Below are positions 18,488-38,408 of a stretch of DNA of 64,000 nucleotides, in pieces. The translations under genes were made by a program, and so were the position numbers. How positions within the stretch are numbered: the stretch's first letter is position 1; the number at the start of each line of letters is the position of its first letter. The stretch is from the NCBI RefSeq assembly GCF_005877055.1, contig NZ_CP039424.1:930001-994000 (forward strand). Direction: 5' to 3'. The notes beneath the pieces were generated by a model. That model was not told where the DNA came from. It made no database searches and was given only the letters and a program-made list of their open reading frames with translations. The stretch is from Citricoccus sp. SGAir0253 (GTDB lineage Bacteria; Actinomycetota; Actinomycetes; Actinomycetales; Micrococcaceae).

Positions 18488-18510
18488 GTCACAGGAGTAT
18501 GCCCTAGGCT
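18488..18510 (+). promoter_or_regulatory. Promoter region of the glycan operon with an element shared with glgX
   Basis: TAGGCT at 18505-18510 is a -10 candidate about 97 bp before the first gene. The stretch GTCACAGGAGTAT-GCC-CTAG at 18488-18507 matches GTCACGGGAGTAT-CGA-CTAG upstream of glgX (38504-38523) with identical spacing. A further AACGGTTAC motif lies at 18413-18421. Confidence 0.45.
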
Positions 18511-18606
18511 GAATCAGTCACTTTGTCACCACGGGGATGGTGGGGACGGGGAGGCCGGTTCGGGCTGAGGGGCCCGTGGCTGGATCATTCGCAATGGGGG
18601 GTCTTG

Positions 18607-20397
18607 GTGAACCGCATCAATCGCAATCGACTGGCGCGCGCCGTCTTCTGGGCGGTGGACATGCTGAGCTGGGTGGTGATGATCCCCGTGGCGGCCTGGT
18701 TCCGCTACGAGTTCGAGGTCCAGCGCATGCCCGTCCTGGGGCTGCTCCTCATCGCCATCGTGACCATCGCACTCCAGTCGGTCCTCGGCATCGTCACCGG
18801 TGTCTACCGCGGCCGTCATCCCTACGGCACCTTCGCCGAGGTCCGGGCACTCACCTACGTGGTCGTGCTGGTAGGAGCCCTGACCTCCGTGCTGGTCTTC
18901 GCCGTCGGCACGGCCTGGAACGTTCCGCGCAGCGTCGCTCTGATCGCGACCCCTATGGCGCTGTTCTGCATGCTGGCAGCCCGGTACGTGTTCCGCCTCA
19001 GCCGTGAGCGCCGCCTCGGGCCGAGGCAGGACGCCGCCCGCACGATCGTCTACGGGGCCGGTTACCTGGGGGAGACCGTCATCCGCCGGATGCAGACCGA
19101 TGCCGACTCGACGTTCCGGCCCGTCGCCCTGCTCGACGACGACCCGGAGCTCTCGAACCTGGAGATCCGCGGCGTGCGGGTCCTGGGTGGGTTCGACGAC
19201 ATCGCCACGGTGGCCGAGTGCACGGCCGCGGAGGAGCTGGTCATCGCGATCGGCCGCGCCGACTCCTCGCTGGTCCGGCGCATCACCGACGCCGCCCAGG
19301 ACGCCGGTTTGCGGGTGCGCGTGCTGCCCCTGCTCGAGAACATCCTCGCGGGGCACACGAAGCTGTCCGACCTGCGAGACATCTCCATCGAGGACCTCAT
19401 CGGCCGGCACCCGGTGGACACCGAGGTGGAGTCGATCGCCGACTACATCGCCGGCAAGCGCGTCCTCGTGACGGGCGCGGGCGGGTCGATCGGCGCCGAG
19501 CTGTGCCGCCAGATCGCCAAGTACGCGCCCACCGAGCTGATCATGCTGGACCGGGACGAGACCGGCCTGCAGCAGGCCCAGCTGGGGGTCGTGGGCCACG
19601 GCCTGCTCCACACCCGGGACGTGGTGCTGGCGGACATCCGCGAGCCCGAGGCCCTCGAGCGCGTCTTCCAGGAACGCCGGCCGGAGGTGGTCTACCACGC
19701 GGCGGCCCTGAAGCACCTGCCGATGCTGGAGCAGTACCCCGAGGAGGCGTGGAAGACCAACGTGCTGGGGACGCTGAACGTCCTCCGGGCGGCGAGGAAC
19801 GCCGACGTGGCAACGTTCATCAACATCAGCACGGACAAGGCCGCCAATCCGACGAGTGTCCTGGGTCACTCCAAGCGCGTCGCCGAGAAGCTGACCGCCT
19901 GGATGGGCCAGGAGACCGGCCGGCCGTACCTCTCCGTGCGCTTCGGCAACGTCATCGGCAGCCGCGGCTCCATGCTCCCGACGTTCCGCTCGCTCATCGA
20001 GAAGGGCGGCCCCCTGACGGTCACCCACCCGGACGTCACCCGCTACTTCATGACCATCCCGGAGGCCTGCCAGCTCGTGGTCCAGGCCGGCGCCATCGGC
20101 GCCCCGGGCGAGGTGCTCATCCTGGACATGGGCGAGCCCGTGCGGATCCTCGACATCGCCGAGCGCATGATCGAGATGTCCGGCAAGGACATCGAGATCA
20201 CCTTCACGGGCCTCCGCGAGGGGGAGAAGCTCCACGAGGAGCTCGTGGGCCTGGGCGAGGGCGATGAGCGCCCGTTCCATCCGAAGATCTCACATGCACT
20301 CGTCAGCGCCTTGTCACCGGACCAGATGGACCGGGACGTCTGGCTGAAGCGGTGCGGCAAGACGGAACACGAGGCAGGAGTAGTCAGTGGCAACTGA
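18607..20397 (+). CDS. Membrane-bound UDP-GlcNAc 4,6-dehydratase (PglF/CapD/WbpM family)
   Basis: Removes water from UDP-GlcNAc to give the 4-keto-6-deoxy intermediate, the first step of bacillosamine-type sugars. Of 596 residues, the first 145 form four transmembrane helices. A first Rossmann-like region follows (IVYGAGYLGETVIRRM), then the SDR catalytic domain with VTGAGGSIGAELCRQIA near residue 287. The active site reads STDKAANPTSVLGHSKRVAEK, where the usual Tyr of YxxxK is replaced, as in this family. GTG 18607 was chosen for the GGGGGG-rich site just upstream. The stop overlaps the next gene by 11 nt. Confidence 0.9.
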   Translation: MNRINRNRLARAVFWAVDMLSWVVMIPVAAWFRYEFEVQRMPVLGLLLIAIVTIALQSVLGIVTGVYRGRHPYGTFAEVRALTYVVVLVGALTSVLVFAVGTAWNVPRSVALIATPMALFCMLAARYVFRLSRERRLGPRQDAARTIVYGAGYLGETVIRRMQTDADSTFRPVALLDDDPELSNLEIRGVRVLGGFDDIATVAECTAAEELVIAIGRADSSLVRRITDAAQDAGLRVRVLPLLENILAGHTKLSDLRDISIEDLIGRHPVDTEVESIADYIAGKRVLVTGAGGSIGAELCRQIAKYAPTELIMLDRDETGLQQAQLGVVGHGLLHTRDVVLADIREPEALERVFQERRPEVVYHAAALKHLPMLEQYPEEAWKTNVLGTLNVLRAARNADVATFINISTDKAANPTSVLGHSKRVAEKLTAWMGQETGRPYLSVRFGNVIGSRGSMLPTFRSLIEKGGPLTVTHPDVTRYFMTIPEACQLVVQAGAIGAPGEVLILDMGEPVRILDIAERMIEMSGKDIEITFTGLREGEKLHEELVGLGEGDERPFHPKISHALVSALSPDQMDRDVWLKRCGKTEHEAGVVSGN

Positions 20398-21523
20398 ACG
20401 AATCTTGATGTCGAAGCCGGACGTCGGAGAGCTGGAGGAGGAATACGTCCTCTCGGCGGTGCGATCGGGCTGGATTGCACCACTGGGACCGGACGTGGAC
20501 GCCTTCGAGGCGGAGATCTCGGAGCGCACCGGGGTGAGGCATGCCGTGGCGCTGTCCTCGGGTACGGCGGCCCTGCACTTGGGGCTCCTGTCACTGGGCG
20601 TGGGGCGCGGCGACATCGTCGTGACGTCCACGATGACCTTCGCTGCGACGGCGAATGCCGTGGCCTACACCGGAGCGACCCCGTTCTTCGTGGATTCGGA
20701 TCCCATGACTGGCAACATCGATCCTGAGCTCCTGGACCAGGCGCTGGCCGAACTTCAGGGAGCAGGGACGCCCGCCTCCGCGGTGGTCCCGGTGGACCTG
20801 CTAGGGAAGGCAGCGGACTACTCCCGGATCGAGTCCATCTGCGCGGTGTACGAGGTGCCGCTGTTCTGCGACGCCGCCGAGTCCCTGGGCGCCTTCCACC
20901 GCGGGAAGGCCGCGGGTTCGTTCGGACGCGCTGGGGTCTTCTCCTTCAACGGCAACAAGATCATGACGACCTCTGGTGGCGGCATGTTCGTGACCGACGA
21001 CGAGATGCTGGCCCAGAACGTGCGCTACCTCTCCACGCAGGCACGCCAGCCGGTGGTGCACTACGAGCACACGGATGTCGGTTACAACTACCGGATGAGC
21101 AACATCCTGGCGGCGCTGGGACGGGCGCAACTGAGCCGCCTTGACGAGATGATCAGCAGGCGCCAGCAGTGGCGTGCAAGGTACAAGGACTTCTTCGAGC
21201 ACATTCCGGGCATCGAGGTCTTCGGTGGCACGAACGACACCGAGGACAATTGTTGGCTGTCGTCCATCGTCGTGGACTCCACACAGACCACCCTCACCGC
21301 ACGCGACCTGCAGGCGAAGCTCGACCGCGATGGCATCGAGTCGCGTCCGCTGTGGAAGCCGATGCACCTACAGCCGGTCTTCCGGGGTGCCCCTCGTCTC
21401 GTCAACGGCTCTTCCGAGTCCCTGTTCGAGAACGGGCTCACCCTCCCCAGTGGTTCATCGATGAGCGAGGCACAGTTCACGCGGGTGCTGGACGCGCTCG
21501 AGGACGCCATGGTTCCCGCATGA
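20387..21523 (+). CDS. PLP-dependent sugar 4-aminotransferase (DegT/DnrJ/EryC1, PglE-like)
   Basis: Transfers an amino group to C4 of the keto-sugar made by the preceding dehydratase. The 378-residue fold-type I enzyme has ALSSGTAALHLGLL for cofactor phosphate binding, the acidic CDAAESLGAFHRG and the PLP lysine in FSFNGNKIMTTSGGGM (near residue 190). The position between PglF-like and PglC-like genes matches the bacillosamine order. GTG is the start, inside the previous gene's end. Confidence 0.88.
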   Translation: MATERILMSKPDVGELEEEYVLSAVRSGWIAPLGPDVDAFEAEISERTGVRHAVALSSGTAALHLGLLSLGVGRGDIVVTSTMTFAATANAVAYTGATPFFVDSDPMTGNIDPELLDQALAELQGAGTPASAVVPVDLLGKAADYSRIESICAVYEVPLFCDAAESLGAFHRGKAAGSFGRAGVFSFNGNKIMTTSGGGMFVTDDEMLAQNVRYLSTQARQPVVHYEHTDVGYNYRMSNILAALGRAQLSRLDEMISRRQQWRARYKDFFEHIPGIEVFGGTNDTEDNCWLSSIVVDSTQTTLTARDLQAKLDRDGIESRPLWKPMHLQPVFRGAPRLVNGSSESLFENGLTLPSGSSMSEAQFTRVLDALEDAMVPA

Positions 21524-22176
21524 TCGACTACGGGTTCGTCAAGCGAAGCCTCGACGCCCTCGGCGCCGCCGGGTTGCTGGTGCTCGCCTCACCGGCGCTC
21601 GGGATCACGGCGCTGATGGTCCGGAGGAACTTGGGCCGACCGGTCTTGTTCACGCAGGAACGTCCCGGGAGGGCGGGAAAGACGTTCCGGATGTACAAGT
21701 TCCGCAGCATGAAGGACGTCGATCCCGAGGCGGGTCTGGTTACCGATGAGGAGCGGCTGACCGACTTCGGCCGATGGTTGCGCTCGACAAGCCTGGATGA
21801 ATTGCCATCCCTGCTCAACGTCCTCAAGGGGGACATGAGCTTCGTGGGACCTAGACCGCTCCTAGTGTCGTATCTGGACCGGTACACGCCGGAGCAGGCA
21901 CGGCGGCACGAGGTCAGGCCCGGAATCACCGGTCTGGCCCAAGTGAGCGGCAGGAACCTCGTGGATTGGGAGGAGCGCTTCCGGCTCGATGTCGAGTACG
22001 TGGACAACATGACCCTGCGGACCGACGCGAGGATTCTGCTGCAGACGGTCAGTGCCGTGTTCCGCCGCCATGGCATATCCGCGGACGGCCAGGCGACCAT
22101 GAGCGAGTTCACGGGGAGTCCGCTTCCGGCCTCCAGCAGGACTGGAGTCCTTGAATCGCGGGGAACCTCGACGTGA
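21520..22176 (+). CDS. Initiating phosphoglycosyl transferase (PglC-like)
   Basis: A 218-residue monotopic enzyme that moves a sugar-1-phosphate from UDP-sugar to undecaprenyl phosphate, starting repeat-unit assembly. It has a single N-terminal hydrophobic re-entrant segment (LGAAGLLVLASPALGITAL), RPGRAGKTFRMYKFRSM, the catalytic DELPSLLNVLKGDMSFVGPR, and RPGITGLAQVSGRN. The short length, without the extra transmembrane domain of WbaP, matches PglC. ATGA overlap with the aminotransferase couples sugar synthesis to its use. Confidence 0.92.
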   Translation: MIDYGFVKRSLDALGAAGLLVLASPALGITALMVRRNLGRPVLFTQERPGRAGKTFRMYKFRSMKDVDPEAGLVTDEERLTDFGRWLRSTSLDELPSLLNVLKGDMSFVGPRPLLVSYLDRYTPEQARRHEVRPGITGLAQVSGRNLVDWEERFRLDVEYVDNMTLRTDARILLQTVSAVFRRHGISADGQATMSEFTGSPLPASSRTGVLESRGTST

Positions 22177-22817
22177 CGCCGCGTCCGATGGTCATCGTGG
22201 GGGCCGGCGGATTCGGTCGTGAGGCCGCCGATGTGGTTGAGGCCGTCAACTCCGCCGCGGGTACACCGCTGTGGGAACTGTCAGGGTTCTATGACGACGC
22301 CCCTGCGGAGAAGAACCTCACTCGATTGCGGCAACGAGGCCTGGCATACCTGGGTCCCATCCCGCAGGAATGGGACGGGACGGACATCAGTTTCGTCATC
22401 GGCATCGGCAGCCCTGCCGTGCGCGAGATCCTGGCAGCGCGACTGGAACGGCTGGGCTGGGAGCCGGCCGTCCTTGTCCACCCGGCCGCCGTCGTCGGTT
22501 CCCGGTCTCTCCTCGGCGCAGGAAGCGTCGTCTGCGGGGGAGTACAGGTCTCAACCAATGTGCAGCTCGGACGGCACGTCCATCTCAACCCGAATGCGAC
22601 CATCGGCCATGACGCGGTCTTGGAGGACTTCGTGTCCGTCAATCCCGCTGTCACCGTGTCAGGTGAGGTGCGTGTCCGGACGGGGACCCTCCTTGGCGCG
22701 GGCAGCGTCGTCCTGCAGGGACTGGAGGTCGGACCCGGCGCCTTGGTTGGAGCCGCCGCCTGTGTTGTACGGGACGTCCCCGCCGACGCCACGGTCAAGG
22801 GGGTGCCCGCACGATGA
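22173..22817 (+). CDS. Sugar O/N-acyltransferase of the PglD/NeuD family
   Basis: Acetylates the 4-amino group of the UDP-sugar, completing a diacetamido sugar. The N-terminal Rossmann-like part reads MVIVGAGGFGREAADVV. The left-handed beta-helix of hexapeptide repeats starts near residue 100, with the catalytic His in NATIGHDAVLEDFVSVNP and the usual ending VKGVPAR. The 214 residues fit the family. GTGA overlap with the transferase gene. The acyl donor is presumably acetyl-CoA. Confidence 0.88.
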   Translation: MTPRPMVIVGAGGFGREAADVVEAVNSAAGTPLWELSGFYDDAPAEKNLTRLRQRGLAYLGPIPQEWDGTDISFVIGIGSPAVREILAARLERLGWEPAVLVHPAAVVGSRSLLGAGSVVCGGVQVSTNVQLGRHVHLNPNATIGHDAVLEDFVSVNPAVTVSGEVRVRTGTLLGAGSVVLQGLEVGPGALVGAAACVVRDVPADATVKGVPAR

Positions 22818-24055
22818 AGATCGTCGTTCTCAGCCAGTACTATGATCCAGAGCCGGTGCCGATCCCGGGGCAGGTGGCCCGTGGCCTCCGCGCCCGCGGG
22901 CACGAGGTGCAGGTCCTGACCGCACCGCCGAGCTATCCGGCCGGAAGGGTCTACGAGGGCTTCCGCAACCACGACACCACCACCGTTGCGGACGGGGTGC
23001 CGATACACCGGGTCCGGACGCCGATCTCCCACTCGCAGAACGCCGTGGGACGATTCGCCAGCTACTTCGGCTTCGCGGGGTCGGCTTCGAGGGCGCGCTC
23101 CCTGATCAGCGGCGCGGACGTCGTGTACGTGTACGCCACGCAGATGACGGCCTCCATCCCGGTGCACGTATGGAGCCTCCTGTGTGGAACCCCGTTCGTG
23201 CTGCACGTCCAAGACCTGTGGCCGGAGTCCATATCCGAGTCCTCGATGATCCCGCCGAAGGCCAAGCAGGCGGTCGAGGCGGTCCTGAACCCGTGGCTGC
23301 GCCGTGCCTATGCGCGTGCCGAGGCCATCGTCGCCATCGCCCCGACAATGGCGGAGGTGCTGAGCCGGCGCGGCGGTGATGCCCGCAAGGTGCGGACCAT
23401 CCTCAACTGGTCCGTGGAAGATGGTCGCCAGGTCACACCTCGGGAACGCCGTACCGCCAGCGAGGGCGGACTCCACCTGCTCTACGCGGGGAACGTGGGA
23501 GACCTGCAGGGGTTTGACGTGGTGATAGATGCGCTGTCCAAGAGCTCAGACCCCGGCGTGCGGCTGCGGGTGGTCGGCGCCGGCAGCAGCCTGGAGGACG
23601 TCAAGCGGCGTGCCGCTGTTCGGTTGCCCCCGGGGCGGGTGGAGTTCTTCGATCCTGTCCCGCGTGAGAGGCTCGGCCCGCATCTTGACTGGGCGGACTT
23701 CCAGTTGATCCCCCTCCGCAACCTGGACATCTTCCGTGGGACCATCCCGTCGAAGTTCCAGGGGAGCATGCGGGAGGCCATCCCCGTGATCACGAACGTC
23801 CCGGGCGACCTGGCGCAGATGGTAGGGGACGAGCAGGTAGGTCTGGTCGCGACGCCTGACGACGCGCAAAGCCTGGCCGCGTGCGTCGATCGAGCGGCAC
23901 GCATCGACGACGAGACGTACGCCGGACTCAGCCGTCGCAGCCTGGAGTTCTACAACCGGTCCATGTCGGCCGACTCCGGGCTGGACCGACTGGAACGGAT
24001 CCTGACAGAAGCAGCATGCGCAAGGAAGAAAGGGAGCGACCGTGTCGGACGCTAA
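22814..24055 (+). CDS. Glycosyltransferase family 4, WbuB-like
   Basis: A 413-residue GT-B enzyme. The N-terminal domain starts MKIVVLSQYYDPEPVPIPG, typical of WbuB L-FucNAc transferases, and contains VLHVQDLWPESI. The C-terminal donor domain has LLYAGNVGDLQGFDVVIDAL and the nucleotide-binding RGTIPSKFQGSMREAIPV. WbuB genes commonly neighbour FnlABC, which follow here directly. The inferred job is addition of L-FucNAc to the lipid-linked first sugar. ATGA overlap with the acetyltransferase gene. Confidence 0.87.
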   Translation: MKIVVLSQYYDPEPVPIPGQVARGLRARGHEVQVLTAPPSYPAGRVYEGFRNHDTTTVADGVPIHRVRTPISHSQNAVGRFASYFGFAGSASRARSLISGADVVYVYATQMTASIPVHVWSLLCGTPFVLHVQDLWPESISESSMIPPKAKQAVEAVLNPWLRRAYARAEAIVAIAPTMAEVLSRRGGDARKVRTILNWSVEDGRQVTPRERRTASEGGLHLLYAGNVGDLQGFDVVIDALSKSSDPGVRLRVVGAGSSLEDVKRRAAVRLPPGRVEFFDPVPRERLGPHLDWADFQLIPLRNLDIFRGTIPSKFQGSMREAIPVITNVPGDLAQMVGDEQVGLVATPDDAQSLAACVDRAARIDDETYAGLSRRSLEFYNRSMSADSGLDRLERILTEAACARKKGSDRVGR

Positions 24056-25070
24056 GAGAATCATGATCACTGGGGGTACCGGCTCCTTCGGGCACACGGT
24101 GACCCGTCGTCTGCTCGACCGCGATGACATCCAGGAGATCCGCATCCTGAGCCGGGACGAGGCCAAGCAAGACCAGATGAGGCACGACCTGGGCGATGAC
24201 CGCCTGCGTTTCTACGTTGGAGACATCCGGGACTACACCAGCGTCGAGCGGGCCATGAAGAACGTGGACTATGTCTTCCATGCCGCCGCATTGAAGCAGG
24301 TCCCGTCCTGTGAGTTCTTCCCCATGGAGGCGGTGCGGACCAACGTCTCCGGATCGGAGAACGTGGTCAGGGCCGCTGACCACGAGGGCGTCTCCTCGGT
24401 GGTGTGCCTCTCGACCGACAAGGCCGTCTACCCGGTCAACGCCATGGGCATGAGCAAGGCCCTCATGGAGAAGGTCGCCATGTCCTACGGCCTCAACAAC
24501 CGTGGGACAACGACCACGGTCTCGTGTGTGCGCTACGGCAACGTGATGTACTCCCGGGGCTCGGTGATCCCGTTGTTCATCAAGCAGCTCAAGTCCGGGA
24601 AGAACCTCACGGTGACCAACCCGGAGATGACGCGCTTCATGATGTCCCTGGAGGACTCCGTCTCCCTAGTCGAGTTCGCCTTCGAGAACGCACGCCAAGG
24701 CGACCTGTTCATCCGCAAGGCGGCATCGTGCACGATCGGAGACCTCGCGCAGGCCGTCATCAACCTGTTCCGGTCGCCCGCCAGCGTCGACGTCATCGGT
24801 ACCCGGCATGCGGAGAAGCTGTCCGAGGCGCTGGCCAGCCGAGAGGAGCTCTCGCGGGCGGAGGACATGGGGGAGTACTTCCGCATCCCGGCCGACAACC
24901 GTGACCTCAACTACAGGATCTATGTCGAGGAGGGGGATCGTGCCCAGATCCTCTACGACGACTACGACTCACATTCCGTCGAGCGCATGACCGTCGAGGA
25001 GGTCGAGGCCCTGCTGCTCACGCTCCCCGAGGTGCGCGCGGAACTCAGTCTGGCCGACGTCGGTGCCTGA
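24042..25070 (+). CDS. capE: UDP-GlcNAc 4,6-dehydratase/5-epimerase (CapE/FnlA/WbjB)
   Basis: First enzyme of UDP-N-acetyl-L-fucosamine synthesis, a soluble SDR of 342 residues. MITGGTGSFGHTVTRRLL binds NAD(P). The active site contains STDKAVYPVNAMGMSKALME, with Met in place of the usual Tyr, a hallmark of CapE/FnlA. SVVCLSTDK and GNVMYSRGSVIPLF match this group. GTG 24042 lies within the end of the upstream glycosyltransferase gene (14-nt overlap). It is distinct from the membrane PglF-like dehydratase: this branch also epimerises C5. Confidence 0.92.
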   Translation: MSDAKRIMITGGTGSFGHTVTRRLLDRDDIQEIRILSRDEAKQDQMRHDLGDDRLRFYVGDIRDYTSVERAMKNVDYVFHAAALKQVPSCEFFPMEAVRTNVSGSENVVRAADHEGVSSVVCLSTDKAVYPVNAMGMSKALMEKVAMSYGLNNRGTTTTVSCVRYGNVMYSRGSVIPLFIKQLKSGKNLTVTNPEMTRFMMSLEDSVSLVEFAFENARQGDLFIRKAASCTIGDLAQAVINLFRSPASVDVIGTRHAEKLSEALASREELSRAEDMGEYFRIPADNRDLNYRIYVEEGDRAQILYDDYDSHSVERMTVEEVEALLLTLPEVRAELSLADVGA

Positions 25071-25083
25071 GGGGGATGAATCC

Positions 25084-26178
25084 ATGAGCAAGATCGCCAT
25101 CACGGGCGCCGGCGGTTTCCTCGGGCTGCACGTGCGTGCCGCGGCACGGGAACTCGGGGTGAACACTGTGGCCATCCCGGTGGGTCCAGGCTTCGACGTT
25201 GATCATGCCGTCGGCGCACTCGACGGGGCGACTCGACTGATCCACTTGGCGGGCGTGAATCGCGGGACTGACGCCGAGATCCAGGAGGGCAACGCCCTGT
25301 TCGTCCAGCAGTTGGGCCAGGCCCTGGAGCGCTGCGAGCGGGCTCCGGAGTCGGTCATCTTCGCCAACAGCATCCAGGCCGGCAACGGCACGGTGTACGG
25401 AACGGCGAAGCAGAGGGCCGGGGCCGAGTTGGGCACTGCAGTAGAGCGCGCGGATTCCACCTATGAAGACGTCCTGCTTCCAAACCTGTTCGGCGAATAC
25501 GGACGCCCGCACTACAACTCGGTGGTCGCCACGTTCTCCCACGTGGTAGCTCGAGGCGGAGCCCCGGAAGTCCACCAGGACAAGGAACTGCAACTTCTAC
25601 ACGCCCAGGACGCGGCCGACATCATGCTGGGAGTCGTCGGAGCCTCTGACATGGATCGAGCCTCCCATCGCGAGACCGTCGCAGGCATCCTGGGACACCT
25701 GCAGGAGTTCGCTGCGCATTACACCAGCGGAGAACTGCCGGACCTCTCCTCGCCCTTCCGCCGGGACCTGTTCAACACCTATCGGGCCTATGCGTTCCCG
25801 GAGAACATGCCCCTTCCGATCACCCGTCACGCCGACAAGCGGGGATCGTTCTTCGAGATCGTGCGTTCGCACGGGGGCACCGGGCAGACCTCCTTCTCGA
25901 CGACGGCTCCGGGGATCACCCGCGGGGATCATTTCCACCGGCGCAAGGTGGAACGCTTTACCGTCCTATCGGGGACTGCCGAGATCAGGCTTCGACGCCT
26001 CTTCGACGACCAGGTGTTCACCTACACGATCACCGGCGATGAACCCAAGAGTGTGGACATGCCCACGCTGTACGCGCACAACATCAGCAACGTCGGGGAC
26101 GACACGCTGTACACCGCGTTCTGGACCAATGACATCTTCGACCCGAGCAACCCCGACACGATTCCGGAGACAGTTTAA
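25084..26178 (+). CDS. capF: Bifunctional reductase/epimerase for UDP-L-FucNAc (CapF/FnlB/WbjC)
   Basis: A 364-residue two-domain enzyme. The N-terminal SDR domain (IAITGAGGFLGLHVRAAA, with Tyr and Lys in VYGTAKQRAG) reduces the 4-keto group. The C-terminal cupin domain (ADKRGSFFEIVRS, GDHFHRRKVERFTVLSG) performs the C3 epimerisation, with metal-binding His residues in GDHFH. ATG 25084 was chosen for the GAGGGGGATG site upstream and the match to the family start. Confidence 0.92.
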   Translation: MSKIAITGAGGFLGLHVRAAARELGVNTVAIPVGPGFDVDHAVGALDGATRLIHLAGVNRGTDAEIQEGNALFVQQLGQALERCERAPESVIFANSIQAGNGTVYGTAKQRAGAELGTAVERADSTYEDVLLPNLFGEYGRPHYNSVVATFSHVVARGGAPEVHQDKELQLLHAQDAADIMLGVVGASDMDRASHRETVAGILGHLQEFAAHYTSGELPDLSSPFRRDLFNTYRAYAFPENMPLPITRHADKRGSFFEIVRSHGGTGQTSFSTTAPGITRGDHFHRRKVERFTVLSGTAEIRLRRLFDDQVFTYTITGDEPKSVDMPTLYAHNISNVGDDTLYTAFWTNDIFDPSNPDTIPETV

Positions 26179-31364: not shown

Positions 31365-31435
31365 GCCACCGCTCCTCCAGGTCGTGGGATGAGCCGCAGG
31401 GCCCTGCCGCTGCTGCCGGGACAAGGTGCGCCGTG

Positions 31436-31459
31436 CCAGACATTGCATAGATTGTCTGG
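31436..31459. promoter_or_regulatory. Dyad in the divergent wzx/acyltransferase promoter region
   Basis: CCAGACA (31436-31442) and TGTCTGG (31453-31459) form a perfect 7-bp dyad around an AT-rich 10-bp centre. It lies 72 bp before the wzx start and could be an operator or cover the minus-strand promoter. Confidence 0.4.
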
Positions 31460-31502
31460 CCCCCGCACCGAGCGATGACTGTACCGGACCCTGCGATGGA
31501 TC

Positions 31503-31586
31503 GATGCACTGACGCCCTTGTCGGGGCCGGGAGGACAAATCGGGGGACCACAAGGCGAGCCCTCGCAGTTGATACACTGACGCCTG
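31503..31586 (+). repeat. Direct repeat pair before the acyltransferase gene, with promoter
   Basis: GATGCACTGACGCCC at 31503-31517 recurs as GATACACTGACGCCT at 31572-31586. The second copy contains TACACT (31574-31579), a reasonable -10 box 37 nt before the ATG. The duplication may mark a regulator site or a duplicated promoter. The rest of the 251-bp divergent gap shows only the dyad at 31436. Confidence 0.4.
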
Positions 31587-31615
31587 TTTGTGTCCAAGGC
31601 TGATCGGAGACCAAG

Positions 31616-32776
31616 ATGACATTTGCGCCGATGAGTCGGGACAACGCCTTTGATTTCCTCCGATTATTGGCGTCCTTAATGGTGCTGATCCACCATAGCG
31701 TCATCCACTTAGATGCCCAGTTCCTGTGGCATTCCGCCACTGCGGGACCGTGGTTCCACGGCGGTGTGTCCCTCTTCTTCGTTCTCAGTGGATACTTGGT
31801 CGTCCGATCGGCGGAGCGGTGTCTCGAAGATCACCGCCCATGGTGGGAGTTCTACCGGAACCGGGCACTACGGATCCTCCCGGCCATTTATGCGTACGGC
31901 ATCGTATCCATTGTCTTGTTGCTGATCTTGGGCGTCATCGACCTCGGATGGTTTGCCTCACTGGAGTCCTGGGCCTTCGTCCTGAGCTACATGTTCCTCA
32001 TTCCGGTCTTCAATCCCGAGGCTCTCGGGTCCTTCGGGATCGGTGTCATCAATGGGAGCCTGTGGACAATTCCCGTCGAGGTGAGCTTCTACGTCGTGGT
32101 TCCGTTGGTGGTGATCGCGGCGCGGAGATGGGGGTGGCGCGTGGCCATGGTCGCTGTGACAGTCTTGTCCGTTGCCGGTGTCGTCATCTATGGCATTACG
32201 GACGGGCCAGCCGCGGAATCCCTCCTTCTCAAAGTCTTTGGCGTAACTTTCATTCCCTTTTTATGGTTTTTTGCAATTGGAATAGTGTGGTCTCGAGCTT
32301 GGCACAAGGTCGTGAAATCCGCCTGGCTGGCACTCGCTTCATTGATGGCGTATTTTGCCATCATCAATGTTCCCCATGGCGGAGGCGAAGGGATGGACTC
32401 CGTTCTCACGGCCGTGGCGGCAGTCCCCTTGTCCTATGCAGCGCTGTGGTTCGGCCACAACGCGCCGAGGTTCTTCGTGCGGCTGCCCAGAAAGGTCGGC
32501 GATCTAAGCTTCGGGACCTATATCTGGCACATGTTCGTGGTCAACGTGATGGTGCAAGCGGGGGCGCGGGACTGGCCGATCAACGGCACCGTCCTTGTGT
32601 GTTTGGTGCTCGCTGTCTCCATGGTTTTGGCGGCAATGTCATGGTGGCTGGTCGAGAAGCCCGCCCTGCGCCTGAAGCACTACTCCATCGCGGGCGCGTC
32701 CCTATCCTTCGGGGCGGCTCGACGCCCTGCGGATGAGATCGTCAAGGATCAAGGTCGCAGTGCCCGCAGATTCTGA
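31616..32776 (+). CDS. Acyltransferase family 3 membrane protein
   Basis: A 386-residue protein with about ten transmembrane helices and no SGNH domain. The N-terminus DNAFDFLRLLASLMVLIHHS carries the conserved Arg and HH, and GGVSLFFVLSGYLVVRSA and FYRNRALRILPA are the second family signature. It would transfer an acyl group, usually acetyl, to the glycan under assembly. It is the first gene of the second plus-strand unit and overlaps the beta-helix gene by 44 nt, or by 17 nt if that gene starts at GTG 32760. Confidence 0.87.
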   Translation: MTFAPMSRDNAFDFLRLLASLMVLIHHSVIHLDAQFLWHSATAGPWFHGGVSLFFVLSGYLVVRSAERCLEDHRPWWEFYRNRALRILPAIYAYGIVSIVLLLILGVIDLGWFASLESWAFVLSYMFLIPVFNPEALGSFGIGVINGSLWTIPVEVSFYVVVPLVVIAARRWGWRVAMVAVTVLSVAGVVIYGITDGPAAESLLLKVFGVTFIPFLWFFAIGIVWSRAWHKVVKSAWLALASLMAYFAIINVPHGGGEGMDSVLTAVAAVPLSYAALWFGHNAPRFFVRLPRKVGDLSFGTYIWHMFVVNVMVQAGARDWPINGTVLVCLVLAVSMVLAAMSWWLVEKPALRLKHYSIAGASLSFGAARRPADEIVKDQGRSARRF

Positions 32777-34307
32777 ACGGCAGCACCTGCTGCGTCGCCG
32801 GTCGATGCTCAAGTCTGCTGCCATCCCACTCGGCGCGGGACTCATCGGCGGTGGAGTGGGCTTCAGCATGTCGGAATTGGGACGCCCTGAGGAGGCAGAT
32901 CCTCGCGTTGCACCGGAAGGTCTCAAGCGCTTCTCGACGAGCGGCACGGACAGACCGGAGCGGTTTCAGGATTTCCTGGATTCCCTCGCCGATGGTGATT
33001 CGGCTGTAGTTGACGGGTCGTTCTCCATCCGTTCTGCCACCATTCGGGCTAATTCTGTCCGCATTGGCTTTGGCCCCGGGGCGAAGCTTGTCCTAGAGGA
33101 ACCATTCGAGGACGGCGTGGTGATCGAAGGGGACCGCGTTTCACTGTTCGGCGGCAGTATTGAGGGGCCGGGGGCGTGGAATGGCGTCAATACGCCATGG
33201 ACACATGCCATGGTTCATGTGAAGGGTGAAAGCTTCACCGCCCAAGGGATGACGCTGCTCAAAGTGCCCAAGGTAGGGTTTGGCATCCGAGGCAATGGCG
33301 GGGGGATCCGCGACTGCGTCATAGTTGGGGGATATCCGGAGCGGTCTTGGACGGGTGTGGAAACCGGTCACTTCGGTATCGTTTTCGATCCCTCGACCGG
33401 TTCATCTCGCAGCACCGCGGGCTCGGTCCACGGCACTAGCATCGCCAGTTGTGTCCAGGGCATCAGCATCGCAAATCACGGCCCCGGCGTGGGCGGATCA
33501 TATTCGATGGTCCAGAACAGTTTCGAAGACTGCCACAACCACGGAGTGTATGCGCAAAGCGGTCTAGGAAACGTGGTGGCCAATAACTCGTTCATAGGCT
33601 GTCAGGTTCCCATAGTCGCTTCGGGAGAGGGTCACGTGATATCGAATAACTCCCTGCGGGCTAAAATGGATGGAACCACTCGGGACCTCACGGGAATAAA
33701 TGTGCGCGATGCGAGAAATTGCGTTGTTGCCAACAATGTTATAAAGGGTCAAGTTTCCTCCTCAAGCGTCGCAGTGTCCTTGGATTCGATCAATGAAACG
33801 GCGATAGTTGGGAATATCATTCATGGAAATGTAATCTCCGTTCAGGGTGAAGGGCGACCTGTAATTCGAGTAGGTCAGAATTCCACGGAGTGCAGCTTTA
33901 ACAAGGTCGAGGGAAACGTTATCTCGGGTGGGGGGCAGGCGGGTCAGGCCGTGGTGGTCGTGACGGTGGCGAGTGAGTCGACCGGTGGGCGCTTCAACGA
34001 AGTTACCTCTAACACCATTCGTACAGTTACGTCGACTGCGGGAATACTCCTCGAGCGGCAGGTCAGCGGGACCGTGCGGCACAACACTGTGATTGCTGAT
34101 TCGCAGCGCCCTATGCCGGAACAAAAAGCTGTAATCGTCCGCGATTCCTCCAGGGTCTTGGTGAAAGACAACGTCTGGAGAACTTCTGGCGACGGAGACA
34201 TGACAGAGCCGTTCGTGGAAGTGAATAGTGCGGGGAATTTCCTCGCAGGGAATATGAAGGAAGGTCCTCGGGGTCTTGAGGAAATCGCAAGATCCCCCAG
34301 GACTTAG
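32733..34307 (+). CDS. Exported right-handed beta-helix protein, paralogue A
   Basis: A 524-residue protein. A twin-arginine-like signal (LLRRRSMLKSAAIPLGAGLI) near residues 20-40 predicts export, then repeated short strands typical of a pectate-lyase-type beta-helix: SVRIGFGPGAKLVLEE, GHVISNNSL, NCVVANNVIKG, NEVTSNTIRT. Blocks GAWNGVNTPWTHAMVHVK, SWTGVETGHFGI and CVQGISIANHG closely match the protein at 46565-48307. Such folds act as polysaccharide lyases, hydrolases or epimerases, or as tailspike-like binders; I cannot see which. Its codons are much less G/C-biased than backbone genes. GTG 32760 is an alternative start. Confidence 0.8.
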   Translation: MRSSRIKVAVPADSERQHLLRRRSMLKSAAIPLGAGLIGGGVGFSMSELGRPEEADPRVAPEGLKRFSTSGTDRPERFQDFLDSLADGDSAVVDGSFSIRSATIRANSVRIGFGPGAKLVLEEPFEDGVVIEGDRVSLFGGSIEGPGAWNGVNTPWTHAMVHVKGESFTAQGMTLLKVPKVGFGIRGNGGGIRDCVIVGGYPERSWTGVETGHFGIVFDPSTGSSRSTAGSVHGTSIASCVQGISIANHGPGVGGSYSMVQNSFEDCHNHGVYAQSGLGNVVANNSFIGCQVPIVASGEGHVISNNSLRAKMDGTTRDLTGINVRDARNCVVANNVIKGQVSSSSVAVSLDSINETAIVGNIIHGNVISVQGEGRPVIRVGQNSTECSFNKVEGNVISGGGQAGQAVVVVTVASESTGGRFNEVTSNTIRTVTSTAGILLERQVSGTVRHNTVIADSQRPMPEQKAVIVRDSSRVLVKDNVWRTSGDGDMTEPFVEVNSAGNFLAGNMKEGPRGLEEIARSPRT

Positions 34308-34369
34308 CATTGGTTTGGTCGTCGCTAGCGCTAATGGGTGGAGCGTCAAACGTTGAGGGAGGGCACTCT

Positions 34370-35707
34370 GTGAAAGTTGCTGTCGTTGCTTTGGGGAAGA
34401 TTGGACTGCCGCTGGCTGTGCAGTTCGCATCAGCTGGTCATGAGGTCACTGGGGTCGATGTCAATGAGCGTCTCGTGGATGTGGTGAACACGGGACGGGA
34501 GCCTTTCCCGGGAGAGGCACGCCTGCAGGAAAAGCTCGCCCACGTTGTGAAGAATGGCAACCTGTGTGCGACGACACAGTATGCAGAGGCGATCCCGCAG
34601 GCCGACGCTGTGGTTCTCGTCGTGCCGCTCTTCGTCGACGAGGAGGCTCGACCAGACTTTGAATGGATGGATGTTGCCACGAAGGAACTGGCTAGGCATC
34701 TCACGTCCGGCACGCTCGTGTCCTACGAGACCACACTTCCCGTGGGCACCACGCGCAACCGGTGGAAACCGATGCTGGAGGAAGGATCGGGACTTAAGGA
34801 GGGCAAGGACTTCCATCTCGTCTTCTCGCCAGAACGAGTCCTGACGGGACGGGTCTTCGAGGACCTTCGCAAGTACCCGAAGCTGATCGGCGGGCTGAGC
34901 CAGGCGGGCGCCGACGCTGCCCGGGCGTTCTACGAGTCGGTCCTCGAGTTCGACGAGCGCGAAGACCTCGCGCGGCCCAACGGTGTCTGGGATCTCGGTT
35001 CCGCGGAGGCCTCCGAACTGGCCAAGCTCGCGGAGACCACCTACCGGGACGTGAACATCGGCCTGGCGAACCAGTTCGCCCGGTTCGCCGCCGAGCAGAA
35101 CATCGACATCTACAAGGTCATCGAGGCCTCGAACTCGCAGCCCTACTCGCACATCCACCGTCCGGGAATCGCCGTGGGTGGGCACTGCATCCCGGTGTAT
35201 CCCCGCCTCTACCTGTGGAATGACCCTGCCGCGACGATCGTGCGCTCCGCGCGCGAGGCCAATGCGGGGATGCCGGACTACACGGTCGGCCTGCTGGAGG
35301 GAGTCCATGGGGACCTCGAAGGTCAGCATGTCGTGGTGATGGGGGCTGCGTATCGAGGAGGCGTGAAGGAGACCGCCTTCTCCGGCGTCTTCGCCGCGGT
35401 GACGTCCTTGGAGTCCCGAGGTGCCAACGTGACCGTCCATGATCCGATGTACACGGACGAGGAGCTGGCCGGTTACGGCTTCGCTCCCTATGCGCGCGGC
35501 ACGGGTCCCGTGGACGCGGCCGTGCTGCAGGCGGACCACGCCGAATACAAGGACTGGACGCCGGCCGACCTGCCGGGCATCCGAACGCTCATCGACGGCC
35601 GCAGCATCGTGGATGCCAGCGCCTGGGACGGCGTGATGGTCCGGACCATCGGCCGGCCGATGGACAAGGCCGCGGCGGGGGATTGGACCGGTGGCAGTGA
35701 GCGTTGA
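34370..35707 (+). CDS. wbpA: UDP-N-acetyl-hexosamine 6-dehydrogenase (WbpA-like)
   Basis: Oxidises C6 of UDP-GlcNAc to the uronic acid, the first step toward UDP-GlcNAc3NAcA. The 445-residue protein begins VKVAVVALGKIGLPLAVQFA (Rossmann). The central domain has LAKLAETTYRDVNIGLANQF, the catalytic Cys is in GIAVGGHCIPVYPRLYLW, and a C-terminal UDP-binding domain follows. GTG 34370 has GAGGGAGGG upstream, and the longer ATG start lacks homology. UDP-ManNAc dehydrogenase (WecC) is an alternative reading; the three following genes favour WbpA. Confidence 0.88.
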   Translation: MKVAVVALGKIGLPLAVQFASAGHEVTGVDVNERLVDVVNTGREPFPGEARLQEKLAHVVKNGNLCATTQYAEAIPQADAVVLVVPLFVDEEARPDFEWMDVATKELARHLTSGTLVSYETTLPVGTTRNRWKPMLEEGSGLKEGKDFHLVFSPERVLTGRVFEDLRKYPKLIGGLSQAGADAARAFYESVLEFDEREDLARPNGVWDLGSAEASELAKLAETTYRDVNIGLANQFARFAAEQNIDIYKVIEASNSQPYSHIHRPGIAVGGHCIPVYPRLYLWNDPAATIVRSAREANAGMPDYTVGLLEGVHGDLEGQHVVVMGAAYRGGVKETAFSGVFAAVTSLESRGANVTVHDPMYTDEELAGYGFAPYARGTGPVDAAVLQADHAEYKDWTPADLPGIRTLIDGRSIVDASAWDGVMVRTIGRPMDKAAAGDWTGGSER

Positions 35708-36314
35708 GGGCAGCGCCTTCGTGGCGGCCACGGCGGACGTGGCAGATGACGCCCGGATCCAGGACGGTGCGAAGATCTGGCACCTCGCCCAGGTCCGGGA
35801 GGGCGCCGACGTCGGGCCCCGGACCATCGTGGGACGAGGCGCCTACATCGGCACCGGAGTCCGCGTGGGAGCGGACAGCAAGATCCAGAACTACGCGCTG
35901 GTCTACGAGCCGGCCGAGATCGAGGACGGGGTCTTCATCGGCCCCGCAGTCGTCCTGACGAATGACACCTACCCTCGCGCGATCGCACCGGACGGTGCTC
36001 AGAAGTCCGCCGAGGACTGGGAGGCCGTCGGCGTGACCCTGCGGCGTGGGGCCTCGGTCGGCGCGCGCGCCGTCTGCGTCGCGCCGGTCACCATCGGGCG
36101 GTGGTCCATGATCGCGGCAGGCTCCGTGGTGACCAAGGACGTGCCCGACTACGCCCTCATGGCCGGCGTGCCGGCACGCCGGATCGGGTGGGTCGGGGAG
36201 GCCGGCCGGCGACTCGAGGCAGACGGCGTGGGCTGGGTGTGTCCGGAGAGCGGGCGACGCTATGTGGAGAACGACAACGGAGACCTGGAATCGGGGGATG
36301 AGCATGGCCTTTGA
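35691..36314 (+). CDS. wbpD: UDP-3-amino-sugar N-acetyltransferase (WbpD-like)
   Basis: A 207-residue left-handed beta-helix enzyme that acetylates the 3-amino group of UDP-GlcNAc3NA. Hexapeptide repeats run from ARIQDGAKIWHLAQVREGA to TIGRWSMIAAGSVVTKDVP. FIGPAVVLTNDTYPR is a WbpD family signature, and MAGVPARRIGWVGEAG follows. A C-terminal extension contains CPESGRRY. GTG 35691 overlaps the dehydrogenase stop by 17 nt; GTG 35697 is equally possible. Confidence 0.9.
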   Translation: MAVSVEGSAFVAATADVADDARIQDGAKIWHLAQVREGADVGPRTIVGRGAYIGTGVRVGADSKIQNYALVYEPAEIEDGVFIGPAVVLTNDTYPRAIAPDGAQKSAEDWEAVGVTLRRGASVGARAVCVAPVTIGRWSMIAAGSVVTKDVPDYALMAGVPARRIGWVGEAGRRLEADGVGWVCPESGRRYVENDNGDLESGDEHGL

Positions 36315-37428
36315 GGGAGCGACCATTCCGGTGGCGAAGCCACTGATCGGTGCGGAGGAACGTCAGGCGGTGGATCGGGTCATGTCGTCGGGCATGGTCG
36401 CGCAGGGTCCCGAGGTGGCGGCCTTCGAGCAGGAGTTCAGCGACGTCCTGGTTCCCGGGGTGCACAGCGTCGCCGTGAACTCGGGCACGTCGGCCCTGCA
36501 CCTAGGGCTCCTGGCGGCCGGTATCGGCGCCGGCGATGAGGTGATCGTCCCGGCCTTCACCTTCGCGGCGACGGCCAACTCCGTGGCCCTCACCGGGGCG
36601 ACCCCGGTCTTCGCCGACATCGATCCCGCCACCTTCTGCCTCGATCCCGCGGCGGCCGCGGCGGCGGTCACCGCGAACACCCGGGCCATCATGCCCGTCC
36701 ACCTCTACGGACAGGCGGCGGACATGACCGCCTTCTCCCGGCTCGCCGCGGAGAAGGGCCTGCTGATCCTCGAGGATGCGGCCCAGGCGCATGCGTCCAC
36801 GTGGGAGGGGAGGCGGGTCGGGACGTTCGGGTCCTTCGCCGCCTTCAGCCTCTACCCGACGAAGAACATGACCTCGGGTGAGGGCGGCATGGTCACCACC
36901 GGCGACGAGGAGCTTGCCCGGTCCATCCGCGTCCTGCGGAACCAGGGCATGGAGAAGCAGTACCGCAACGAGGTCGTGGGCCTGAACAATCGCATGACGG
37001 ACATCCATGCCGCCATCGGTCGGGTCCAGCTGACCAAGGTGCTCGACTGGACGGCTCGTCGGCAGGCCAACGCGGCGGTTCTCGACGAGGCGCTGTCGTC
37101 CGTCCACGGCGTGGCGACCCCGGTGGTCGACTCGCGCGCGGGGCACGTCTACCACCAGTACACGATCAGGCTGGACGGTGCCTCCACCGAGGACCGTGAC
37201 TCCTTCGTCGCGGCACTGAGGGATGAGCACGGGGTGGGGGCCGGCGTGTACTACCCCGTTCCCGTGAACCGCCTGGACTCGTTCGCGGTGGAGGCGGACC
37301 TGCCGCACACGGAACGAGCGGCCCGTGAGGTCGTCTCGCTTCCCGTTCACCCCTCGCTCGAGGCGGTTGACCTGGAGCGCATCGCCACCGCCGTCGCGGT
37401 TGTGGCCTCCGCGGGGGTGACCGCATGA
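36298..37428 (+). CDS. wbpE: UDP-3-keto-sugar aminotransferase (WbpE-like)
   Basis: A PLP enzyme that converts the 3-keto uronic acid made by the oxidoreductase to the 3-amine. It has PVAKPLIGAEERQAVDRV at the N-terminus, AVNSGTSALHLGLLAAG for phosphate binding, EDAAQAHASTWEGRRVG, and the PLP lysine in SLYPTKNMTSGEGGM near residue 188. It is about 376 residues long. ATG 36298 or 36304 could be the start, both overlapping the acetyltransferase gene. It is distinct from the PglE-like enzyme at 20387, which acts at C4. Confidence 0.9.
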   Translation: MSMAFEGATIPVAKPLIGAEERQAVDRVMSSGMVAQGPEVAAFEQEFSDVLVPGVHSVAVNSGTSALHLGLLAAGIGAGDEVIVPAFTFAATANSVALTGATPVFADIDPATFCLDPAAAAAAVTANTRAIMPVHLYGQAADMTAFSRLAAEKGLLILEDAAQAHASTWEGRRVGTFGSFAAFSLYPTKNMTSGEGGMVTTGDEELARSIRVLRNQGMEKQYRNEVVGLNNRMTDIHAAIGRVQLTKVLDWTARRQANAAVLDEALSSVHGVATPVVDSRAGHVYHQYTIRLDGASTEDRDSFVAALRDEHGVGAGVYYPVPVNRLDSFAVEADLPHTERAAREVVSLPVHPSLEAVDLERIATAVAVVASAGVTA

Positions 37429-38408
37429 TGCGGGTGGGATTGATCGGCCTGGGCATGATGGGGCGCCACCACGCCCGGGTGCTCCAGCACCTGGACGGCG
37501 TCGAACTGGCGGCGGTCTCCGATCCCGGAGGCGACGTCCACGGCGCGGCTCCCGGGGTCCCCTTGTACCCGGACGTCGCGGGACTCATCGGGCACGGCGT
37601 GGACGCCGCTGTCTGCGCCGTGCCGACGGCCCTGCACGAGCCGGTGGGGATGCAGCTGGCGGAGGCGGGCATCCACGCCTTCATCGAGAAGCCGATCGCC
37701 GCGGACGTGGCCTCGGGACAGCGCCTCGTCGACGCCTTCGCGTCCCGCGGCCTGGTCGGTGCCGTGGGCCACATCGAGCGTTTCAACCCCGCCCTCCAGG
37801 AACTCAAGCGCCGACTGGATGCGGGGGATCTGGGCAAGATCCACCAGATCGCGACGCGTCGCCAGGGCCCCTTCCCGGGACGCATCACGGACGTGGGGGT
37901 GGCCCGGGACCTGGGTACCCATGACCTCGACCTGACCATGTGGCTCGGCGGCGATCGATTCGCGGAGATCGACTCGCAGTCCGCGATCCTGGTCCGGGAC
38001 GGGCGGGAGGACCTCATCGCGATCACCGGTCGTCTCCGGAACGATGTCATCACCAATCACCTCGTCAACTGGCTGTCCCCGATGAAGGAGCGGGTCACCA
38101 CGGTCACCGGTGAGGCCGGGGCCTTCGTCGCCGACACCCTGACGGCGGACCTGACCTTCTATGAGAACGGCAGCGTCGAGACCGAGTGGGAGGCGCTCGC
38201 CAACTTCCGGGGGGTGAAGGAGGGGAACATCACGCGCTTCGCCTTCCCGAAGCCCGAACCGCTCAAGACCGAGCTCGAGGCCTTCCGGGATGCGATCCGC
38301 AGCGGCGCGCCGGGGATCGTGACGCTCGAGGACGGGCTCCACACCTTGCGTGCCGCCGAGGCCGTGATCAACGGCCCCTCGGTCTCCGGCTCGTTCAACG
38401 GCGACTGA
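37425..38408 (+). CDS. wbpB: UDP-GlcNAcA 3-dehydrogenase (Gfo/Idh/MocA family, WbpB-like)
   Basis: A 327-residue NAD-dependent oxidoreductase that oxidises C3 of UDP-GlcNAcA. MRVGLIGLGMMGRHHARVLQ is the Rossmann start, FIEKPIAADVASGQRLVDAF carries the catalytic EKP motif, and GHIERFNPALQEL and DLGTHDLDLTMWL supply the Asp/His active-site residues. ATGA overlap with the aminotransferase. It is the last gene of the acyltransferase-to-wbpB unit and is followed at once by a hairpin. Confidence 0.9.
   Translation: MMRVGLIGLGMMGRHHARVLQHLDGVELAAVSDPGGDVHGAAPGVPLYPDVAGLIGHGVDAAVCAVPTALHEPVGMQLAEAGIHAFIEKPIAADVASGQRLVDAFASRGLVGAVGHIERFNPALQELKRRLDAGDLGKIHQIATRRQGPFPGRITDVGVARDLGTHDLDLTMWLGGDRFAEIDSQSAILVRDGREDLIAITGRLRNDVITNHLVNWLSPMKERVTTVTGEAGAFVADTLTADLTFYENGSVETEWEALANFRGVKEGNITRFAFPKPEPLKTELEAFRDAIRSGAPGIVTLEDGLHTLRAAEAVINGPSVSGSFNGD

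Follow-up and report, generated by a model that had tools for sequence, protein, structure and literature searches.

Among the surface glycans assembled from three amino sugars, the serotype 5 capsular polysaccharide (CP5) of Staphylococcus aureus offers a biochemical reference, since its three lipid intermediates have been made in vitro by a phosphoglycosyl transferase (PGT), followed by CapL, which adds N-acetyl-L-fucosamine (L-FucNAc), and by the addition of the uronic acid (PMC6441080). The capsule of Acinetobacter lwoffii F78 is a trisaccharide of L-FucNAc, 2,4-diamino-D-quinovose (D-QuiN4N), and a 2,3-diamino glucuronic acid (PMC3726653), the O-polysaccharide locus of Flavobacterium psychrophilum contains pglF, pglE, a pglD homologue, and three L-FucNAc genes (PMC6519341), and the Streptomyces utr loci, which vary between species, direct teichuronic acids, O-acetylated wall polymers of 2,3-diacetamido-glucuronic acid (GlcNAc3NAcA) or its manno counterpart (ManNAc3NAcA), by a Wbp-like route (PMC13274773). 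The teichuronic acid of Micrococcus luteus consists of N-acetylmannosaminuronic acid (ManNAcA) and glucose (PMC3005890). The locus described here lies in a window of 64,000 nucleotides, the whole stretch of DNA analyzed, from Citricoccus sp. SGAir0253 (contig NZ_CP039424.1, positions 930,001 to 994,000), and occupies the interval between glmS and a glgX-type gene. Its genes probably direct the Wzx/Wzy-dependent synthesis of a surface polymer, either a capsule-like or a wall-bound polysaccharide, with an O-acylated trisaccharide repeat of N,N'-diacetylbacillosamine (diNAcBac), L-FucNAc, and GlcNAc3NAcA.

As in CP5, three amino sugars derived from UDP-N-acetylglucosamine (UDP-GlcNAc) would be used, L-FucNAc being added second through CapE/F/G and a GT-B transferase and the uronic acid third, with putative O-acetylation and subsequent export (PMC6441080). 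The CapE, CapF, and CapG enzymes of the CP5/CP8-type capsule are all present. In contrast, the branch to N-acetyl-D-fucosamine (D-FucNAc), a dehydratase plus the reductase CapN, is missing from the locus, where genes for an aminotransferase, a sugar transferase, and an acetyltransferase come after the dehydratase gene, and so is the CapO/CapP branch to ManNAcA, the third set consisting of a dehydrogenase, an aminotransferase, an acetyltransferase, and a 3-dehydrogenase with no second 2-epimerase. The predicted repeat thus has diNAcBac in first position instead of D-FucNAc and GlcNAc3NAcA in third position instead of ManNAcA; moreover, the locus encodes an acyltransferase-3 (AT3) family enzyme and an additional beta-helix protein, and lacks CapA/B/C. 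The A. lwoffii capsule is similar in composition, but it belongs to a Gram-negative bacterium, its N-acyl groups include 3-hydroxybutyrate and alanine, and its uronic acid is given as L (PMC3726653). The F. psychrophilum polysaccharide differs in having L-rhamnose as third sugar, other N-acyl groups, and a lipopolysaccharide-bound state (PMC6519341), whereas the Streptomyces polymers are linked to wall teichoic acid and their transferases resemble TarS/TarM, with no mention of diNAcBac or L-FucNAc in the available portion of the report (PMC13274773). Among the K loci of Acinetobacter baumannii, gna/dgaABC, fnlABC, and qhbAB/gdr modules are assigned to the same three sugars (PMC9676051). The locus is therefore not new in kind, having precedents in S. 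aureus CP5, the Acinetobacter lwoffii capsule, and Streptomyces walls. A preliminary description of this DNA had stated that no Micrococcaceae surface polymer of this composition was known; a literature search, with most subscription journals outside its reach, showed nothing among the records listed to contradict this; both composition and assembly logic have precedents in other bacteria.

In the proposed route, PglF, PglE, and PglD would convert UDP-GlcNAc to UDP-N,N'-diacetylbacillosamine, from which PglC would load diNAcBac onto undecaprenyl phosphate. CapE, CapF, and CapG would make UDP-L-FucNAc, the donor used by the glycosyltransferase GT1 for the second residue, and WbpA, WbpB, WbpE, and WbpD would make UDP-GlcNAc3NAcA, from which the glycosyltransferase GT2 would add the third. 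The trisaccharide would be flipped by Wzx, polymerized by Wzy, and O-acylated by the acyltransferase-3; a Wzz-kinase encoded elsewhere may set the chain length and a protein of the LytR-CpsA-Psr (LCP) family may attach the polymer to the wall. The least certain step concerns the beta-helix protein, a probably exported product of this operon, which might act on the finished polymer as a lyase, a hydrolase, or a C5-epimerase.

The 20.2-kb interval comprises 17 genes in three blocks. Block 1, on the plus strand (18604-27309), contains PglF, PglE, PglC, PglD, GT1, CapE, CapF, and CapG with overlapping or touching ends; block 2, on the minus strand (31622-27488), contains Wzx, GT2, and Wzy; block 3, again on the plus strand (31616-38408), contains the acyltransferase-3, the beta-helix protein, WbpA, WbpD, WbpE, and WbpB. 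A codon-position scan selected 16 of the 17 frames and chose an antisense open reading frame (ORF) at the PglC-like gene, whose frame is nonetheless supported by its Bac_transf score. Fourteen genes have Pfam matches over cut-off, the exceptions being the Wzy-like gene, GT2, and the beta-helix gene. All the genes listed in the preliminary description, i.e., the PglF/E/C/D-, CapE/F/G-, and WbpA/D/E/B-like sets, the initiating transferase, two glycosyltransferases, Wzx, Wzy, and an acyltransferase, are present as open frames, and one PGT with two glycosyltransferases does match the number of sugars, as it had claimed; the 524-residue beta-helix gene had been missed. The three amino-sugar pathways that it proposed are supported by the placement of the enzymes with profile hidden Markov models and Protein Data Bank (PDB) chains, with most equivalog models under their cut-offs. 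Its first sugar, "QuiNAc4NAc or bacillosamine", fits the diNAcBac pathway, although the alternative is only apparent, QuiNAc4NAc and N,N'-diacetylbacillosamine being one compound (PMC6519341).

All the enzymes of the Campylobacter-type diNAcBac pathway (PglF, PglE, and PglD, with PglC) are encoded. The PglF-like protein has four hydrophobic segments between residues 10 and 126 in a hydrophobicity scan, and its top PDB match is WlaL (5bju, 268 bits), followed by CapE at 134 bits. The PglE-like protein scores 267 and 264 bits with 1o61 and 4ztc, and then 229-257 bits with other sugar aminotransferases; WlaL and these two chains are presumably Campylobacter jejuni proteins. The PglC-like protein, assigned to its family by Bac_transf, is 67% identical to the PglC-like protein of a cluster in the family genome G188. 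In three related genomes (G112, G054, and G008; L070, L072, and L081), inspection of the sequences found an ATP-grasp-like gene in the place of PglD beside PglF, PglE, or PglC, and in the CapF region of G112 and G008 also a gene resembling pyridoxal phosphate-dependent decarboxylases; the 4-amino sugar perhaps receives a different N-acyl group there. Within about 22 kb of G054 (L071, L072), two PglF-like and two PglC-like genes occur, which are divided between the surroundings of CapEFG and a PglF-E-C-D set of its own.

In the L-FucNAc set, the CapG-like protein scores 399 bits with CapG and 219 bits with diacetamido-glucuronate 2-epimerases, which places its gene in this set. A CapF search matched 59 genomes, of which 36 with partial matches only (E>=3e-6) were excluded, leaving 23 including Citricoccus sp. 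SGAir0253; regions from 21 of the 22 other genomes were compared, G212 being omitted as it had the same score as G292, and matches were kept at E<=1e-8 if they covered 35% or more of the query. One of the CapF relatives (G139, L009) has an internal TGA. A relative of GT1 with at least 30% identity occurs in 10 of the 21 regions, about 11 kb away in G375, and directly adjoins CapE in G112, G054, and G008. GT1 relatives are also present in 63 plasmid records; in three of the four examined (Deinococcus proteolyticus, Deinococcus ficus, and Sulfitobacter) the gene directly follows CapE-CapF-CapG. In F. psychrophilum, a WbuB homologue is assigned to the addition of L-FucNAc onto Qui2NAc4NR (PMC6519341). 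This genomic association suggests that GT1 is the probable L-FucNAc transferase.

The Wbp pathway to UDP-GlcNAc3NAcA is represented by a WbpA/B/E/D unit recognizable from protein families, PDB matches, and conserved gene association. The WbpA-like protein scores 300 bits with the nucleotide-sugar dehydrogenase subfamily model, over its cut-off of 190, and the acetyltransferase chain 3mqg matched by WbpD is presumably Bordetella WlbB. Other sugar aminotransferases (251-274 bits) outscore WbpE itself as PDB matches of the WbpE-like protein, the top one being 7b0d at 274 bits. The WbpB named in the preliminary description has the Gfo/Idh/MocA fold, and the curated model with the best score is NF040723, for an archaeal UDP-GlcNAc 3-dehydrogenase (208 bits, cut-off 450); its best PDB chain is 7bvj (86 bits), and no chain named WlbA was found at E<=1e-15. 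WbpB of this type is encoded in 103 of 390 family genomes including the source genome, about a quarter. In 12-kb stretches taken from 12 of the best-scoring of these genomes, WbpA, WbpD, WbpE, and WbpB always occur together, with an insertion between WbpA and WbpD in two, at identities of 73-79%, 66-70%, 61-66%, and 63-66%, respectively. Eight of the 12 loci have a GARPQF-motif 2-epimerase no more than 3 kb away from WbpB (73-87% mutual identity), which the other four could have beyond the 12-kb stretch; a ninth in the genus genome G007 is 56-59% identical to these, and the 2-epimerase beside the WbpB/D/E-like genes of Deinococcus radiophilus has the same motif. Judging from context, this group presumably corresponds to WbpI. 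The source genome has two PF02350 matches, CapG (GTRPEII) and the gene at C1:2113366 (GTRPEAI), neither of the GARPQF type; the WbpI-type step to UDP-ManNAc3NAcA was therefore not found, which favors GlcNAc3NAcA over ManNAc3NAcA as the predicted third sugar and agrees with the earlier proposal. A Streptomyces plasmid (H5) with WbpD/E/B-like genes was set aside as evidence, the stretch around them being devoid of a glycan cluster.

Export and, tentatively, polymerization are assigned to block 2. At E<=1e-12, GT2 has a counterpart only in G188 among 385 family genomes including the source. The G188 cluster shows identities of 68% for PglF, 67% for PglE, 67% for PglC, 59% for PglD, 31% for Wzx, and 36% for Wzy; one of its glycosyltransferases is 23% identical to GT1 and another 25-27% identical to GT2, and the contig ends in an incomplete WbpB (58%), some 8 kb away from GT2. 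The Wzy-like protein is also 27-28% identical to an annotated O-antigen polymerase. Its relatives in plasmid records are two, in D. radiophilus, in a row of WbpB/D/E-like genes (27, 37, and 41%), Wzx, Wzy, GT2 (24% identity), and the 2-epimerase, and in Cetobacterium somerae, where PglF/E/C/D-like genes accompany the gene annotated as an O-antigen polymerase. The clusters of these three Wzy relatives thus carry the diNAcBac or the diacetamido-uronate set, and CapE/F in none of the stretches examined, which favors a repeat that starts with diNAcBac at its reducing end, continues with L-FucNAc, and has the uronic acid as its non-reducing terminus; the repeats would be joined by Wzy, and GT2 is the probable uronic-acid transferase. 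Nothing further was found for the Wzy pair in 22 chosen genomes (G188 among them), and the Wzy of the locus had no relative in 48 stretches of the CapF search or in the 12 A-D-E-B stretches and is present in one of eight genus genomes. A pattern scan of named genomes confirmed no Wzy either, which, with few peptide patterns, is weak evidence of absence. By sequence, Wzx probably starts near 31370, so that about 250 bases would separate the divergent Wzx and acyltransferase genes. The acyltransferase-3 has at residue 51 the motif VxxFFx[IVL]SG[FWY] (PMC9558356). A second candidate O-acyltransferase, an acyltransferase-3 fused to an SGNH domain, is encoded beside glmS (window 14238-16442, minus strand).

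Table 1. Features of the glmS-glgX interval and related genes (positions in the window; scores in bits)
Feature	Position	Strand	Evidence
glmS, left boundary of variable interval	16511..18382	+	full-length match in 7/8 genus genomes including own
PglF-like UDP-GlcNAc 4,6-dehydratase, N-terminal membrane part	18604..20397	+	Pfam Polysacc_synt_2 349, CoA_binding_3
PglE-like C4 aminotransferase	20387..21523	+	DegT/DnrJ 331; LegC-family model 366, cut-off 420
PglC-like initiating PGT, start inferred within longer ORF	21520..22176	+	Bac_transf 203, cut-off 27
PglD-like N-acetyltransferase	22173..22817	+	NeuD_NnaD model (NeuD/PglB/VioB family) 181.9, cut-off 160.8
GT1, GT4-type glycosyltransferase, probable L-FucNAc transferase	22814..24055	+	Pfam GT4 domains over cut-off; WcaI-family model 124, cut-off 276
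CapE/FnlA-like dehydratase/5-epimerase	24042..25070	+	Cap8E (PDB) 419; FnlA model 440, cut-off 730
CapF/FnlB-like reductase	25063..26178	+	PF14667 156; Cap5F (PDB) 196
CapG/FnlC-like 2-epimerase	26179..27309	+	CapG 7ya2 (PDB) 399
Wzy-like polymerase	27488..28936	-	13 partly overlapping hydrophobic segments (crude scan)
GT2, probable uronic-acid transferase	28929..30125	-	GT4 domains below cut-off
Wzx flippase, true start probably near 31370	30144..31622	-	PF13440 28.9, cut-off 23; hydrophobic segments
Acyltransferase-3, probable O-acyl transfer to polymer	31616..32776	+	PF01757 118
Secreted-looking beta-helix protein, copy 1, 524 aa, candidate polymer-modifying enzyme	32733..34307	+	39% identity to copy 2
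WbpA-like UDP-sugar 6-dehydrogenase, start probably near 34367	34310..35707	+	three UDPG_MGDP_dh domains over cut-off; GGHC motif
WbpD-like N-acetyltransferase	35691..36314	+	Hexapep 71; PDB 3mqg (WlbB-type) 133
WbpE-like C3 aminotransferase	36262..37428	+	DegT/DnrJ 417; PDB WbpE 241
WbpB-like UDP-sugar 3-dehydrogenase	37425..38408	+	GFO_IDH_MocA 77; Gfo/Idh/MocA fold
glgX-type gene, right boundary of variable interval	38536..40656	+	83-90% identical full-length match in 5/7 other genus genomes
Beta-helix protein, copy 2, outside locus	46565..48307	-	PF13229 Beta_helix 65, cut-off 25.9

Several observations weigh against a single trisaccharide repeat made of these sugars. Most equivalog models score under their curated cut-offs, so that the families are secure while the exact substrates are predicted from the whole set; the sugar order and the linkages are likewise predictions. 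The PglD-like protein is nearer to VioB (92 bits) than to UDP-N-acetylbacillosamine N-acetyltransferase (46.5 bits), with a pilin glycosylation protein at 74 bits, which makes the predicted N-acyl group less certain. The Wzy-like protein has no Pfam match and scores 19 bits with the oligosaccharide repeat polymerase model (cut-off 40), and the GT4 domains of GT2 are below cut-off. As regards GT1, relatives are only 22-26% identical in nine of the 21 CapF regions and absent from two, the fourth plasmid examined, from Sphingobium, lacks CapEFG, and weak relatives (21-25%) also occur in the G188, D. radiophilus, and Cetobacterium clusters, CapEFG-free in the stretches examined. At the filter used, the three sugar sets are found together in none of the 21 other CapF regions; G188 (91% complete, 6% contaminated) has three housekeeping-like genes between WbpB and PglF, and in the genus genome nearest to having all three sets (G007), WbpD is missing from the region and an intact WbpA likewise.

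In particular, none of the 12-kb stretches around the 12 WbpADEB loci contains CapE/F, and the three sugars therefore need not share one polymer: diNAcBac and L-FucNAc could form the Wzx/Wzy repeat, with UDP-GlcNAc3NAcA delivered to a separately made wall polymer resembling teichuronic acid. Such wall polymers, of GlcNAc3NAcA/ManNAc3NAcA, are known in Streptomyces (PMC13274773). A further region near 2.13 Mb of the genome, with a UDP-sugar dehydrogenase and glycosyltransferase-like genes, would suit such a division. This is rather unlikely, however, as WbpADEB belongs to the block beside wzx that also encodes the acyltransferase and the beta-helix protein, the relatives of GT2 and Wzy travel with WbpB/D/E or PglFECD, and one glycosyltransferase would be left without a sugar. 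A second alternative concerns the third sugar, which could be ManNAc3NAcA (or ManNAcA) if a 2-epimerase acted in trans, in keeping with the GARPQF-type enzymes of eight A-D-E-B loci and G007, with the additional 2-epimerase gene at C1:2113366, and with the best named equivalog of WbpA, an archaeal UDP-ManNAc dehydrogenase (260 bits, cut-off 750), which also counts against the gluco sugar. The C1:2113366 protein, however, is only 33-37% identical to the eight and has GTRPEAI rather than GARPQF, and no PF02350 match was found in the genome beyond it and CapG, so a manno configuration is judged improbable. Finally, the PglF/E/C/D-like set recalls the Campylobacter pgl system, in which a short glycan serves protein glycosylation and no polymer is formed; with a Wzy-like gene whose relatives lie in polysaccharide clusters and a Wzx of a polysaccharide family, this is judged very unlikely. 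A surface polysaccharide containing all three sugars is thus preferred.

As for chain length, the locus contains no regulator, and the earlier observation that neither Wzz nor Wzc is encoded there was right; a regulator of this kind may be encoded at a distance, and its absence here is compatible with the Wzx/Wzy class. Length control, which had been called unexplained, now has a candidate, since the sole Wzz-family match in the genome (C1:2144457, about 1.2 Mb from the locus) is an ORF of 503 residues that reads as a Wzz-like start joined to a Walker-A kinase part and adjoins an LCP gene, one of three LCP matches in the genome. A CpsC/D-like regulator and wall-attachment enzymes would thus lie outside the locus. 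In the related loci of G112, G054, and G008, a Wzz-like gene, recognized by inspection, is within the cluster.

The interval was compared among eight genus genomes including the source. The glmS and glgX-type genes are on one contig in four others, and their intervals measure 19.7 kb (G001), 19.6 kb (G007), 14.6 kb (G006), and 9.3 kb (G005), against 20.2 kb here. PglF follows glmS at 76-83% identity in G001, G004, G006, and G007; it is not found there in G005 or within the 2.8 kb examined of G002, and G003 has no full-length glmS match. The center of the interval differs between genomes, and many central ORFs have a third-position G+C of 0.50-0.63, others (some doubtful) being higher; G007 keeps WbpE (77%) and WbpB (88%). 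The glmS-glgX interval therefore varies like a serotype slot, as loci for capsules or O-antigens do. In the source genome, G+C is 57-61% in the center of the locus and 69% over the whole window, the value declining from 67% for the Pgl set to 57% for the beta-helix gene before rising again to 68% for the Wbp set; a repeat search of the region found short, diverged families only. The rmlB gene and a fused rmlC-rmlD (window 41442-43894, plus strand) lie just outside the interval here and inside it in G001, G005, and G007, and the source genome may also make a rhamnose-containing polymer. An rmlA-like gene (window 48570-49532, minus strand) has an in-frame stop with both halves matching NTP_transferase, the stop being either a real mutation or a sequencing error. 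Farther on (window 51879-61987), an apparent aldehyde dehydrogenase, a thiamine pyrophosphate enzyme, and two amidohydrolases were judged from sequence starts only.

The beta-helix gene of the locus overlaps the acyltransferase gene by 44 nucleotides and stops two bases short of the WbpA ORF, which places it inside block 3; the second copy is about 12 kb away. Copy 1 has neither a Pfam match nor a PDB relative at E<=1. Twin-arginine-like motifs near the N-terminus (RRSML at residue 22 in copy 1, RRAAL in copy 2) indicate that both proteins are likely exported, although a simple hydrophobicity scan of the pair gave no strong segment. Relatives occur in three of 395 family genomes, i.e., the source (twice), G007, with a stop-interrupted copy about 3 kb past its glgX-type gene (L112, about 12740-13540), and G186, with a weak match; a search of 386 order genomes returned only the source. 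A phage origin is unsupported, as copy 1 has no relative in 50,697 phage records, none was confirmed for the pair in IMG/VR by pattern scan, and neither copy has a PHROG. Copy 2 has no relative in plasmids, and a pattern scan of named genomes confirmed none for the pair, weak evidence of absence given the few peptide patterns. Beta-helix proteins are encoded within other polysaccharide operons, as AlgG and WcaM, and these precedents make a polymer-acting enzyme the preferred guess. It is tentatively suggested, with more doubt than confidence, that the pair found a new enzyme family whose function is to modify or cleave a GlcNAc3NAcA-containing polymer, e.g., an AlgG-like C5-epimerase acting at the polymer level or a lyase, made by the operon that makes the sugar.

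These results offer a testable surface-polymer structure for an actinobacterial group and show that the glmS-glgX interval behaves as a serotype slot in the genus. Diacetamido-uronic acids, which were recently discovered in the walls of Streptomyces, are thereby extended to a module with a WbpB that about a quarter of the family genomes searched encode. The part deserving specialist attention is the operon-linked beta-helix protein, which may act on an unusual polymer.

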